From assembly GCF_003385235.1 (NCBI RefSeq), contig NZ_PQIA01000039.1:1-64000 (forward strand): a DNA stretch of 64,000 nucleotides. The letters are read 5' to 3'. The stretch comes from Amycolatopsis circi (lineage in GTDB: Bacteria; Actinomycetota; Actinomycetes; Mycobacteriales; Pseudonocardiaceae). The position numbers were made by a program, and so were the translations under genes. The notes beneath the pieces are model-generated. The model ran no database searches. It worked only from the letters and a program-made list of their open reading frames with translations, and had not been told where the DNA came from. The first letter of the stretch is position 1; the number at the start of each line of letters is the position of its first letter. Below, in pieces: positions 3,331 through 62,661 of this stretch.

Positions 3331-3957
3331 TCACAGCCCGCGCTTAGCGCCCTTCAACTGCTCCACCGCGGCATCGTCTCCCTCGTAAGAGACCTGCACC
3401 GCATCCCGCCCGAAGACGAACAGCAGCAGTTCCACCGGCTCCCCCACCACAGTCACCACCGGAGTTCCGGACTTCACCGACGCCGACTGGCCACCAGGAG
3501 TCCGCAGCACCACCCCGACCGGTGACTTGCGCAGGTTCAGCTTCGCCGTCCGCGTAGCCAGCCGCCAGGCCGCACCGTCCCGCGAGGGGTCAGCCGGGCG
3601 CGGGGTCCAATCCGGTTGCGCCCGGCGGACATCCTCGTGGTGCACCAGGAACTCCGCGCTGTTCGTCGCCTCGTCCACCGGACCGATCGACGTCGGCCAG
3701 AAGCGGGACGGGCCGCGGCGCACCTGGCCGACCAGGTCGTCCCACGGGCGCGCCGCGACGCCGTCCTGCACCTTCTGCGTGTGACCCGCGAGCGCGGGCA
3801 CGACGATTCCCGGCATCGCGTCCGGCCGGTGTTCTCGTACGACCAGGTGCGCGGCCAGGTCCCGCGTCTGCCAGCCCTCGCACAGGGTCGGGGCGTCCGG
3901 GCCGAGCTGCTCGAAGAGGTCGCTCAGCGCTTGGCGTTCATCTTTGGCGAGGCCCAT
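3331..3957 (-). CDS. TIGR03085-type DinB/maleylpyruvate isomerase-fold protein
   Basis: This 208-residue protein matches the actinobacterial TIGR03085 family of the DinB/mycothiol-dependent maleylpyruvate isomerase fold. The opening has the hallmark LCEGWQTRDLAAHLVVRE, where His would be the first metal ligand, and a later FLVHHEDVRRAQP supplies a second His pair. Family members are putative metal- and mycothiol-using enzymes whose reactions are mostly unproven. The ATG at 3957 is chosen; an in-frame GTG nine bases earlier is possible. It converges on the S9 peptidase gene and lies 27 bp downstream of gadB on the same strand, so cotranscription is likely. Confidence 0.8.
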   Translation of the reverse strand: MGLAKDERQALSDLFEQLGPDAPTLCEGWQTRDLAAHLVVREHRPDAMPGIVVPALAGHTQKVQDGVAARPWDDLVGQVRRGPSRFWPTSIGPVDEATNSAEFLVHHEDVRRAQPDWTPRPADPSRDGAAWRLATRTAKLNLRKSPVGVVLRTPGGQSASVKSGTPVVTVVGEPVELLLFVFGRDAVQVSYEGDDAAVEQLKGAKRGL

Positions 3958-10822: not shown

Positions 10823-10877
10823 GTCCGTGAGGGGAACCCTGAGGGAATCAGAGTCCGTCAGGGTTCCCCTCACGGAC
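10823..10877. repeat. 55-nt palindrome, family A, copy 1
   Basis: Arms GTCCGTGAGGGGAACCCTGA and its exact complement pair over 20 bp, and the 15-nt centre is partly self-complementary. It lies between the convergent MFS and lipoprotein genes. The same 55-nt design recurs at 21363, 44405 and 62287, and as variant B at 22412, 30637 and 62148. A bidirectional terminator role fits the position. Confidence 0.85.
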
Positions 10878-21362: not shown

Positions 21363-21417
21363 GTCCGTGAGGGGAACCCTGAGGGACTCTGAGTCCCTCA
21401 GGGTTCCCCTCACGGAC
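21363..21417. repeat. 55-nt palindrome, family A, copy 2
   Basis: Two perfect 27-nt arms flank a single central T, so the whole 55-nt unit is an uninterrupted palindrome (GTCCGTGAGGGG... on both strands). It lies between leuA and the WYL regulator, 57 bp past the leuA stop. It is the most perfect copy in the window and should form a very stable hairpin in RNA. Confidence 0.9.
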
Positions 21418-21450: not shown

Positions 21451-22431
21451 ATGCGAGCTGAGCGTCTGGTCGCGTTGCTGTTCACGTTGCATCGCAAACG
21501 TGCGGGGACGGTCGGGGAGCTGGCCGACGAACTCGGCGTGACCGAACGGACGATGCGGCGCGATCTGGCCGCGTTGCGCGAAGCCGGAGTGCCGCTCTGG
21601 AGTGAACCAGGGCGGCACGGCGGCATCCGGCTCGTCGACGGCTGGCGTTCTCGGCTCGACGGCCTCACTTCCCGGGAGGCCGTCGCGCTGTTGGCCCTTG
21701 ATGTTCCGGACGCGCTGGCCGGGCTCGGTCTCGGCACCGCAGTGGCGGCCGCGCACGCGAAAGTGTCCGCGAGCATGCCCGCTCAGCTGCAGGAACAGGC
21801 CCGGACGGTCGCCGGGCGGTTTCATCTCGACGCGTCGGCCTGGTTCAGCTCGCCGGACGACACCGCCATGCTGCCTGCGGTCGCGAAGGCGGTGTGGACC
21901 CAGAAGCGGCTCGACGTGCGGTATCGGCGGCGCGACAAGGTCACTCGGCGGACGCTCGATCCGCTGGGGCTCGTATTGAAAGCCGGGGTTTGGTACCTGG
22001 TGGCGCGGGTCGACGCTGACCTGCGGACGTATCGCGTTTCTCGGCTAGGGGCGGTCGCCGAGACCGGAGAAACCTTTGTACGGCCGGAAGAATTCTCGCT
22101 CGCTGACTGGTGGCGGGCGTCGTCGGCGGAGTTCGAGAAGATGCCGCTGCCGCTGAAGGTGACGGCACGGCTCGACCGGACCGCGGCCGGTGCGTTGCGG
22201 CGCGTTTTCGGGCCGGAGCACGTGAACGAGGTGCTGGTATCGCTCGGCCCGAAGGACGACGACGGATGGGCCGAGGCCGAGTTCGCCATGGAGGGCAAGG
22301 AAGTCGCCGTCGGACAGTTGGTTTCCCTCGGCCCCGGCGTCGAAGTGCTGACCCCGCCGGAGATCCGCGCCGCGGTCGCGGAATTCGGTCAGGCGCTCGC
22401 CGACCGCAACCGTCCGTTAAGGGCCCCTTGA
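21451..22431 (+). CDS. WYL-domain transcriptional regulator
   Basis: This 326-residue protein has an N-terminal DeoR-like helix-turn-helix (about 1-55, TVGELADELGVTERTMRRDL) and a WYL domain (about 140-215, with LDPLGLVLKAGVWYLVARVD) plus a C-terminal extension. WYL proteins bind nucleic acid or a small ligand and control nearby genes, often in stress or defence settings. The ATG follows GGGAGG. Curiously the last six codons and the stop (RPLRAP*) are supplied by a 55-nt palindrome, so the natural C-terminus has been overwritten. The target is unknown; the nearest gene is the convergent SDR. Confidence 0.85.
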   Translation: MRAERLVALLFTLHRKRAGTVGELADELGVTERTMRRDLAALREAGVPLWSEPGRHGGIRLVDGWRSRLDGLTSREAVALLALDVPDALAGLGLGTAVAAAHAKVSASMPAQLQEQARTVAGRFHLDASAWFSSPDDTAMLPAVAKAVWTQKRLDVRYRRRDKVTRRTLDPLGLVLKAGVWYLVARVDADLRTYRVSRLGAVAETGETFVRPEEFSLADWWRASSAEFEKMPLPLKVTARLDRTAAGALRRVFGPEHVNEVLVSLGPKDDDGWAEAEFAMEGKEVAVGQLVSLGPGVEVLTPPEIRAAVAEFGQALADRNRPLRAP

Positions 22432-22466
22432 GGGAATCTGATTCCCTCAAGGAGTCCTTCACGGAC
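22412..22466. repeat. 55-nt palindrome, family B, copy 1
   Basis: Arms of 27 nt around a central T pair with three mismatches; the inner part is CCTTGAGGGAATC/GATTCCCTCAAGG. The left arm is inside the WYL regulator frame and supplies its stop; the right arm ends 8 bp before the stop of the convergent SDR gene. Confidence 0.85.
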
Positions 22467-30636: not shown

Positions 30637-30691
30637 AGCCGTGAAGGACTCCTTGAGGGAATCTGATTCCCTCAAGGAGTCCTTCACGGAC
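30637..30691. repeat. 55-nt palindrome, family B, copy 2
   Basis: A perfect 25-bp stem (CCGTGAAGGACTCC... on both strands) surrounds a central T. It starts two bases after the NTF2-like stop and ends two bases before the stop of the convergent ABC ATPase gene, filling the whole gap. Confidence 0.9.
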
Positions 30692-44299: not shown

Positions 44300-44510
44300 C
44301 CAATGCCAGGGACTTAGGCCGTGCGGCCTCGGCATGCCGAGCGTCTACAAAGGACTCAAGGCTCGCGAAATGCCCGATCCATGCCCTCGTGGCCGCTTGC
44401 TCGTGTCCTGAGGGGAACCCTGAGGGAATCAGAGTCCCCCAGGGTTCCCCTCACGGACAGCCGCATCCCGCACCTGCCTCGCCAGCCCCGCGGCCAGGAC
44501 AGACACCCCT
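44300..44510. mobile_element. Decayed copy of the 240-bp MITE-like element
   Basis: The left end CCAATGCCAGGGACTTA matches the terminal repeat of the element at 62180-62419. The order that follows is the same: GGCCTC, TCTACAAAGG, GAAATGCCCGA, CCATGCCC, then a 55-nt palindrome beginning 105 bp from the end (107 bp in the other copy), then CCAGGACAGACAC. The right terminal repeat is not recognisable, so this copy is eroded. Confidence 0.75.
44405..44458. repeat. 55-nt palindrome, family A, copy 3 (54 nt, inside the decayed element)
   Basis: The unit lacks one G in its left arm (GTCC-TGAGGGG) and otherwise pairs as in the other copies with a few mismatches near the centre. It lies inside the decayed MITE-like element. 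Confidence 0.85.
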
Positions 44511-61581: not shown

Positions 61582-62148
61582 ATGACGACCGATCCAGCAC
61601 AGGGCGCGACCTGGGGAGAGCAGCCTGCTCCCGCTTCCGGCGGCAGCGGCCCGGGGAAGGCGTGGTCGGGCCGGAAAACCGTGATCGCGGCGGGCGTCGC
61701 GGTAGTGATCGCGGTGGGCGGCGGACTGGCGATCTGGGCGGGCACCAGCGGCAACAACGCGACCGCGCAGCAGGGCCAGGGTCCCGGCGGATTCGGCGGT
61801 CCGGGCGGACAGGGCGGTTTCGCCGGTCGCGGCGGCATGGGCGGGATGGCCGCGTTGCGGGATGCGCTGCACGGCGACTTCGTCGTGGCCGATCCGGCTG
61901 GCGGATATGTCACCGAACGCCTGCAGACCGGGACGATCACCGAACTCAGCGCCACCTCGGTGACTTTGACGAGCAAGGACGGCTACAAGCAGAGCTACAC
62001 GCTGGATTCGTCGACCAACAAGACCGGTTCGCCCAAGTCCGGCGACAACGTCACCGTCGTCGCGAAGGTCCAGGGCACCACGGCCACCGCGACCTCGCTG
62101 GGCGAAGCTCAGCAGTTCGGCAACGGACAACCTCGCCGCCGCGGGTAG
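61582..62148 (+). CDS. DUF5666-like membrane-anchored extracellular protein
   Basis: This 188-residue protein has one membrane helix at about 33-53 followed by a Gly/Gln-rich linker (GGFGGPGGQGGFAGRGG) and a beta-rich domain (about 110-180) with GTITELSATSVTLTSKDG, typical of DUF5666. It should be held outside the cell. The ATG follows GGAGGAG. It is divergent from a two-component system and may be controlled by it. The stop is one base inside a disrupted palindrome. Confidence 0.8.
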   Translation: MTTDPAQGATWGEQPAPASGGSGPGKAWSGRKTVIAAGVAVVIAVGGGLAIWAGTSGNNATAQQGQGPGGFGGPGGQGGFAGRGGMGGMAALRDALHGDFVVADPAGGYVTERLQTGTITELSATSVTLTSKDGYKQSYTLDSSTNKTGSPKSGDNVTVVAKVQGTTATATSLGEAQQFGNGQPRRRG

Positions 62149-62179
62149 TCCGTGAAGGGCCCCTTGCGGGAATCTGGTT

Positions 62180-62419
62180 CCAATGCCAGGGACTTAAGCG
62201 GCGTGGCCTCACGCCTACCGACCGTCCACAAAGGCCACCACTTCCGCCGAAATGCCCGACCCATGCCCACTTAGCCGCTTCCGCGCGTCCGTGAGGGGGA
62301 CCCTGAGGGACTCAGAGTCCCTCAGGGTTCCCCTCACGGACAGCAAACCCTGTGCCCACGACCAGGACAGGCACACTTCGAACCCCACCCACAGCCCCGC
62401 CTTAAGTCCCTGGCATTGG
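62180..62419. mobile_element. MITE-like element, 240 bp, with 19-bp terminal inverted repeats
   Basis: The ends are CCAATGCCAGGGACTTAAG and its exact complement, 19 bp each. Both sides carry the direct repeat AATCTGGTT (62171-62179 and 62420-62428), a 9-bp target duplication. No transposase is encoded, so movement needs an enzyme from elsewhere. The core holds a 55-nt family A palindrome. The decayed copy at 44300 shows that it has moved more than once. Confidence 0.85.
62287..62341. repeat. 55-nt palindrome, family A, copy 4 (inside the MITE-like element)
   Basis: Two 27-nt arms flank a central A with one mismatch. This copy travels with the element, so at least some of the palindromes are mobile. 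Confidence 0.9.
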
Positions 62420-62466
62420 AATCTGGTTCCCTCAAGGAGTCCTTCACAGCGAGCGAGGAGGCTGTC

Positions 62467-62661
62467 GTGAAGCGGTGGATCACGTTGGCGTGCGGTGTGG
62501 TGCTGGTGCTCGTCGGCGCGGTGTGGGTGCTGCAGGGCGTCGGCGTGCTGACCGGAAGTTTCATGACCGGGCAGAAGCTGTGGTTCCTGATCGGGCTGGT
62601 CGCGTTCCTGGTCGGCGTAGTCCTCGTCGCGGCCACCACGTTCCGGAAACGCGTCCGCTGA
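62467..62661 (+). CDS. Small membrane protein, 64 residues, unknown function
   Basis: A GTG at 62467 follows GAGGAGG and opens a frame for a 64-residue protein with two hydrophobic segments (about 5-25 and 38-57) joined by a short polar turn (TGSFMTGQK) and ending in FRKRVR inside. Two-helix proteins of this size are common in actinobacteria. The frame is open further upstream through the inserted element, but that part would not be original. It converges on the DDN-like gene with one base between stops. Confidence 0.7.
   Translation: MKRWITLACGVVLVLVGAVWVLQGVGVLTGSFMTGQKLWFLIGLVAFLVGVVLVAATTFRKRVR

Follow-up and report, generated by a model that had tools for sequence, protein, structure and literature searches.

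A multicopy MITE of Amycolatopsis circi, probably moved by an IS4-family transposase with a strong preference for palindromic targets

What interrupted the palindromic repeat near the end of this stretch of DNA, what moved the intruder there, and was the palindrome its chosen target? We analysed the whole stretch (the window; 64,000 nucleotides of Amycolatopsis circi) together with the rest of its genome and a set of 80 genomes of the genus. Judged from sequence comparison, the element is very likely a non-autonomous MITE with the ends of an IS4-family (DDE) element, probably moved in trans and preferring the axes of REP-like palindromes.

The window copy is 238 bp long and has 18-bp ends. An earlier note on this DNA had described a 240-bp MITE-like element with 19-bp perfect terminal inverted repeats and 9-bp direct repeats; a MITE with perfect inverted repeats between direct repeats was indeed present, and only the lengths had to be revised. 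The element occupies 62181-62418, with the 18-bp perfect terminal inverted repeat CAATGCCAGGGACTTAAG, and is flanked by the 11-bp target duplication GAATCTGGTTC at 62170-62180 and 62419-62429. Read at this site, the direct repeat is 13 nt (GGAATCTGGTTCC) because the flanking G and C agree by chance with the end bases of the element, and duplication and inverted repeat can be parsed as 9+19, 11+18 or 13+17. We chose 11 and 18 bp because unambiguous copies of the MITE and its parent mostly show 11-bp duplications and ends starting CAATGCC. Three matches to the end sequence were found in the window, against a mean of 0.00 expected by chance (100 shuffles). The note had also read the element as encoding no protein and as carrying a different (family A) palindrome. 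No protein gene was evident among the open reading frames on both strands (a frame of 72 aa, 62252-62470, starts and lies mainly within the MITE and exits through its right end), and the palindrome was located at 62287-62341. The features of the window are:

10823..10877, unstranded: stand-alone family A palindrome, a potential target
21363..21417, unstranded: stand-alone family A palindrome, a potential target
22412..22466, unstranded: stand-alone family B palindrome, a potential target
30639..30689, unstranded: stand-alone family B palindrome, a potential target
44300..44461, + strand: second, partial MITE copy (left end, left arm and a palindrome at 44409-44453), one of the 44 clusters described below
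62148..62169, unstranded: left arm of the 55-bp family B palindrome that the MITE interrupts, rebuilt as a 20-pair hairpin; the homologous palindrome is intact in genome G051 (locus L125)
62170..62180, unstranded: left copy of the target-site duplication GAATCTGGTTC, in the palindrome loop; 11 bp, the length fixed by other copies
62181..62198, + strand: left terminal inverted repeat CAATGCCAGGGACTTAAG, one base off the IS4-family ends of loci L039, L040 and L049
62181..62418, unstranded: the MITE, 238 bp, non-coding (no gene evident), member of a multicopy family
62218..62236, unstranded: inner stretch CCGACCGTCCACAAAGGCC, resembling by eye a stretch in the MITEs of other genomes, whose arms align by blastn
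62287..62341, unstranded: 55-bp family A palindrome carried by the MITE, better conserved than the arms
62401..62418, - strand: right terminal inverted repeat, a match to the end sequence
62419..62429, unstranded: right copy of the target-site duplication GAATCTGGTTC, a direct repeat
62430..62451, unstranded: right arm of the interrupted palindrome, part of the rebuilt site

The four stand-alone palindromes are 51-55 bp long and have an 11-nt symmetric centre. Within the inner stretch at 62218-62236, a sequence near CGTCCAYAAAGGACG, itself an inverted repeat, recurs by eye in the MITEs of several genomes amid diverged arms.

The state of the site before insertion could be reconstructed and was also seen directly in a relative. 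Excision of the element and one direct repeat restored a 55-nt palindrome (62148-62180 joined to 62430-62451), as the earlier note had proposed, and this folds as a 20-pair hairpin with the outermost 4 nt on each side unpaired. The downstream flank was matched in 80 of the 80 genus genomes searched, and the orthologous loci of 19 relatives were compared. Of these, nine had a readable intergenic gap (G090, G051, G072, G010, G012, G049, G064, G045 and G054); of the rest, L138 aligned unclearly and the other nine were left unread, the upstream gene being unmatched in all but L134. None of the nine readable gaps held the MITE, and nothing resembling its ends, with 4 mismatches allowed, was found in any of the 19 orthologous loci. 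G051 keeps the same palindrome family intact at the orthologous place (L125) with a single copy of GAATCTGGTTC in the loop, and therefore provides the empty site by which the note had proposed that insertion could be checked.

The gaps of the remaining relatives hold other hairpins or, in G010, another repeat. Across the orthologous gaps (L124-L132) the hairpins belong to differing families, GAAGGGAACCTTGAGA... in G090, G012, G049 and G064 and family B in G051 and G072; at the gap corresponding to 62148-62451 it is as if the hairpin were kept while its sequence was swapped among close relatives. Another hairpin repeat, with the core GGGGTGCTTGTCAAGGC...GCCTTGACAAGCACCCC, lies at L072:2475-2745 (contig C275 of genome G000) and in L127 between 1108 and 1514, and a similar repeat sits at the orthologous site of the MITE in G010. 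The 651-base flank of L072 that contains this repeat was matched 55-90 times per genome in 7 close relatives, and 78 times in G045; short palindrome matches are included in these counts, but many of the matches listed are 190-270 bases long at 80-94% identity. Because this flank is itself a high-copy repeat, it is uninformative about a second empty site.

The MITE is present in many copies in the A. circi genome. The end sequence had 77 matches at up to 2 mismatches, compared to 0 for a reversed control, so the further copies of the terminal repeat that had been named as a check do exist. In 50 stretches of the genome, picked from end and BLAST matches, we found 44 clusters of MITE arms (21 of them two-armed) in addition to the copy at 62181, for a total of about 45 MITE copies or fragments; many clusters are at contig ends, and some may be halves of one copy. 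A target duplication with up to 2 mismatches was found at 20 of 27 MITE sites, the other 7 being without a good duplication; duplications were scored on two-ended copies, leaving out overlapping alternative pairings in L056, L072 and L090. Within the genus, a match to the end at up to 1 mismatch was found in 20 of 80 genomes (the reversed control gave one match overall, in G002), and G010, G016, G018, G054, G090 and G008 have related MITEs, similar at the ends and alignable in the arms. Beyond the genus, the exact paired-end pattern occurred 0 times in genome contigs and no match to the MITE was found in plasmids, in searches from which records near the A. circi genome may be left out.

Full-length transposons that share the ends of the MITE, another check that had been proposed, were found in two genomes and encode an IS4-family transposase. 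A search with PF13006 (the IS4 N-terminal family) gave matches in 19 of 80 genus genomes, and, among the loci examined, elements bounded by AATGCCAGGAACTTARG ends were located at L039 (G016) and at L040 and L049 (G001). There are six copies in G001, of 1,655 bp with 0-1 differences, and one in G016, of 1,636 bp. Their open reading frames, of 513 and 520 aa, are IS4-family transposases by Pfam and NCBIfam: those at L049 and L039 match Nterm_IS4 (PF13006), DDE_Tnp_1 (PF01609) and NF033592 (IS4 family transposase) above cut-off, the last with 165.2 and 160.1 bits compared to a cut-off of 115. The Y-R-E-K signature, typical of IS4, is visible by eye in one of them. The duplications flanking these insertion sequences are 10-11 identical bp in seven of seven copies, and most copies of both the MITE and the insertion sequence have 11 bp. 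Similarity between the two, and likewise between the MITE and the A. circi contig ends described below, covers about 20 bp of the ends, with one base different (GGGAC in the MITE, GGAAC in the insertion sequence). We rejected a simple internal deletion of the insertion sequence as the origin of the MITE, since the similarity ends after those 20 bp. Taken together, the sequences indicate that the parent of the MITE is probably an IS4-family insertion sequence.

The A. circi genome appears to have its own copies of the parent. Five contig ends enter the insertion sequence for 94-125 bases and are 72-77% identical to the G001 and G016 elements. Two are left ends (contigs C78 and C224) and three are right ends (C143, C155 and C179), which sets a minimum of three copies. 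C78 and C143 can be paired through an 11-bp duplication without mismatches, AATCTAAGTAC, which lies inside a palindrome (L082 and L062 are the contig ends with the left and right ends of the element, 74-77% identical to the parents); for C224, C155 and C179 are equally good partners. The interior of the parent is absent from the assembly, and only its ends are seen, at contig ends, as would be expected of a repeat that collapsed in assembly. Elsewhere, in a sample of 297 genomes of the family, E 1e-90 was reached in G001 and G016 alone. Beyond the genus, a search with the transposase gave 96 stretches with the pattern and no confirmed relative, and 119 plasmid records contained only IS4 relatives of less than 60% identity, again in searches from which records near the A. 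circi genome may be absent.

None of the seven copies in G001 and G016 (L143-L148 and L039) has a stop for the transposase frame within the insertion sequence. The stop lies 1-16 bases beyond the element, in the duplicated target or palindrome arm, in six of the seven and 604 bases beyond it in the seventh. We considered a stop supplied by the target as a link between target and gene and do not rely on it, as the right ends in the A. circi genome appear by eye to have a stop just inside the element, in the frame resembling the tail of the G001 gene.

By sequence counts, palindrome targeting by both the MITE and its parent is a strong preference and not a rule. We called a site palindromic if the duplication was flanked within 30 bases by both arm motifs, CGTGARGG on one side and the complement on the other, each with up to one mismatch. 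Both arms were present at 6 of 7 parent sites (5/6 in G001 and 1/1 in G016) and at 15 of 40 MITE sites, compared to 0.32% of window positions (205 of 63,880; either arm at 3,417) and 13 of 10,400 positions in a G001 control. The MITE sites comprise 8 of 27 in the A. circi genome and 7 of 13 in other genomes (G016 2/3, G018 4/5, G008 1/1, at a site without a good duplication, G054 0/1, G010 0/2 and G090 0/1). The binomial probability, with positions treated as independent, was about 2e-14 each for the A. circi MITEs and for the G001 insertion sequences. At least one arm was found at 14 of the 27 A. circi sites and neither arm at 13, several of which have exact 11-bp duplications (L065, L091 and L098). 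The palindromic sites are centred, such that the 11-bp duplication is the loop.

Other measures of symmetry were less suitable. Hairpin folding was rejected as too permissive in GC-rich DNA: a symmetric-stem test was passed by 17 of 27 A. circi sites and 14 of 20 sites in other genomes, and also by 22.6% of 4,000 control windows. Ungapped symmetry about the loop (at least 16 of 27 pairs) was found at 11 of 20 sites in other genomes, compared to 0.54% of 20,000 controls, and in only 7 of 27 A. circi rows, a set that counts L090 in two pairings and lacks the window copy. We used the arm motifs for scoring because indels in the A. circi palindromes defeat the ungapped test.

We suggest that the transposase would act in trans on the MITE by binding its 18-bp ends, and that cuts staggered by 11 bp would place the element in a two-fold symmetric target, preferentially at the symmetry axis of a REP-like palindrome. 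Recognition probably depends on local symmetry and not on a fixed word, because the target palindromes differ from genome to genome yet stay symmetric about an 11-bp loop, which is GACTCAGAGTC in G001 and ACCTTGAGAGT, ACGCTTAAGGT and ACCCTCAAGGT in G016 and G018. Alternatively, the transposase might read a short sequence near GANTCNGANTC, or simply a purine at the first and a pyrimidine at the last of the 11 positions, and symmetry or a cruciform would be irrelevant. The duplicated loop is nearly constant in the palindromes of A. circi and G001 (GACTCWGAGTC, GAATCTGATTC), as this would predict. In duplications compiled by hand, leaving out sites without a clear duplication, position 1 was G or A and position 11 was C or T at all 20 palindromic sites; of 9 non-palindromic sites, 8 had G at position 1 and 7 had C at position 11. 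However, the loops of G016 and G018 differ and yet remain centred, and the non-palindromic sites have little in common beyond the outer G...C. We therefore regard recognition of a short sequence as possible, though distinctly less plausible than recognition of symmetry. The empty site and the near-identical parents of G001 make this a natural system in which to test whether palindrome symmetry guides target choice.

It would be quite surprising if the mover were another IS4-type transposase with similar ends, the G001/G016-type elements being mere cousins. The A. circi MITE has GGGAC where the insertion sequences have GGAAC, and homology stops at about 20 bp, leaving room for such a mover. IS4-type genes are present in the A. 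circi assembly on C42 and C283, and the right end of the C42 element, CAATGCCGCGTAGCTTAGG, is of the same general type as the MITE ends, as are the more distant ends of the G089 elements, which read AATGCCGGGTAGTTAGG on both sides. Nevertheless, the C42 and C283 genes, rejected as the parent, are by their best protein matches only 34-36% identical to the parent transposase, and no matching end within 4 mismatches was found at their loci (that of C42 begins at a contig end, where the left end of the element is out of view). The at least three copies of the parent in the same genome have closer ends, and most of the 13 two-ended MITEs of other genomes end in GGAAC like the insertion sequence. 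Homologous recombination between palindromes, for which there are ample partners (exact cores in the hundreds, and a palindrome in most MITEs) and to which the 7 of 27 copies without a good duplication might be attributed, is barely credible as the means by which the MITE entered its site: the palindrome of the MITE is internal and not at its ends, exact ends with exact 11-bp duplications, at non-palindromic sites too, are the mark of DDE transposition, and missing duplications are as expected from later recombination or decay.

The palindromes exist independently of the element that targets them. The exact core GAGGGAMTCWGAKTCCCTC was counted 224 times in the A. circi genome; of the 80 genus genomes 23 have it, and the control gave 0 matches. 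It is abundant in genomes that have no match to the MITE ends (G012, 82 copies; G040, 79; G087, 57), from which we conclude this independence. No Y1 transposase (PF01797) was matched in the A. circi genome, while 5 of 14 control genomes were positive, leaving a REP/RAYT mechanism for these palindromes unsupported, and no Rfam family reached the gathering threshold in the stretches examined. The MITE suggests how palindromic repeats might be carried around without a REP-type transposase.

Most copies of the MITE carry such a palindrome. A strong inner palindrome, defined by a score threshold, was found in 36 of the 40 two-ended MITEs, which come from seven genomes (25/27 in A. circi and 11/13 in other genomes); of the two misses in other genomes, L161 has an imperfect palindrome by eye and L158 (G054) has none. 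In the 25 A. circi copies mean identity was 97.1% for the palindrome and 78.2% for the inner arms, with the higher similarity lying in the palindrome for 299 of 300 pairs. The five copies in G018 had values of 0.95-1.00 for the palindrome and 0.88-0.94 for the arms, the three copies in G016 had virtually no difference in conservation, and the three copies of G010 and G090 gave a mixed picture, the palindrome being less similar than the arms in one of three pairs. Thus, only for the A. circi genome do these alignments show strong extra conservation of the carried palindrome. The palindrome carried in G018 is not the same as the target palindromes, and four of seven exact cores of that genome are in two-ended MITEs with a fifth in a one-ended copy; a large stock of genomic copies is therefore not simply what keeps the carried palindrome uniform there.

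An insertion that breaks one palindrome would bring in another that could also be used as a target. At L087 a copy of the parent insertion sequence interrupts the palindrome of a MITE. This is no sign of a preference for the palindromes of MITEs, because at least 20 of the 224 A. circi cores are in two-ended MITEs and there are about three copies of the insertion sequence. We tentatively raise the idea, about which we are more doubtful than confident, that the MITE is a mobile landing pad that took up the kind of palindrome at which its transposase aims and so replaces each one that it destroys. If so, any use that the host makes of the palindrome at a site (such as ending transcription) would be kept, a target would be regenerated for the next MITE or insertion sequence, the palindrome family would ride on the transposon, and the high conservation of the carried palindrome in A. 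circi would reflect selection or conversion acting on that role.

Several features of the system are familiar from other IS4-family elements. E. coli IS4 makes duplications of about 11-13 bp and has ends resembling AATGCC...TTAAG, and IS231A makes 11-bp duplications at a symmetric GGG(N)5CCC target; we know of no insertion of either in genome-wide palindromic repeats. Other elements resemble the one here in targeting REP palindromes and belong to other transposase families: IS1397 and ISKpn1, of the IS3 family, and ISPpu9, ISPpu10 and ISPa11. To our knowledge, none of these five has a non-autonomous derivative that carries the target. Searches of titles and abstract openings, mostly outside subscription journals, found no published name for this element and no literature on Amycolatopsis MITEs or IS4 elements, on IS4 MITEs at palindromes or on REPs and MITEs together in actinobacteria.

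The earlier note was right that some insertion sequences prefer palindromic targets: insertion at REP axes is established, and the cases described include an IS4-family element, ISRm22 of Sinorhizobium meliloti, nine copies of which are in REP elements, inserted at the palindrome axis (Tobes and Pareja 2006, PMC1525189). ISRm22 is the closest parallel in family and in axis insertion to the parent of the MITE, and differs in having 6-bp direct repeats instead of 11 bp and other palindromes, according to the main text of that paper, in which the word MITE is absent (PMC1525189). The same text describes ISPpu9, ISPpu10 and ISPa11 as IS110-type elements specialised on REP palindromes (PMC1525189), and titles cited in PMC2817692 place IS1397 and ISKpn1 on enterobacterial palindromic units. 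REPINs and their RAYTs, as described in PMC3116915 and PMC2817692, are likewise short mobile palindromic repeats with many copies that are moved in trans; in contrast, they are associated with tyrosine transposases and are not elements with terminal inverted repeats and an 11-bp duplication. The kind of element is thus known, and what seems new, within the literature searched, is that an element targeting palindromes also carries a target palindrome of its own. It links an IS4-family transposase, its MITEs and the palindromic repeats of 23 of 80 genus genomes, which are usually described apart.
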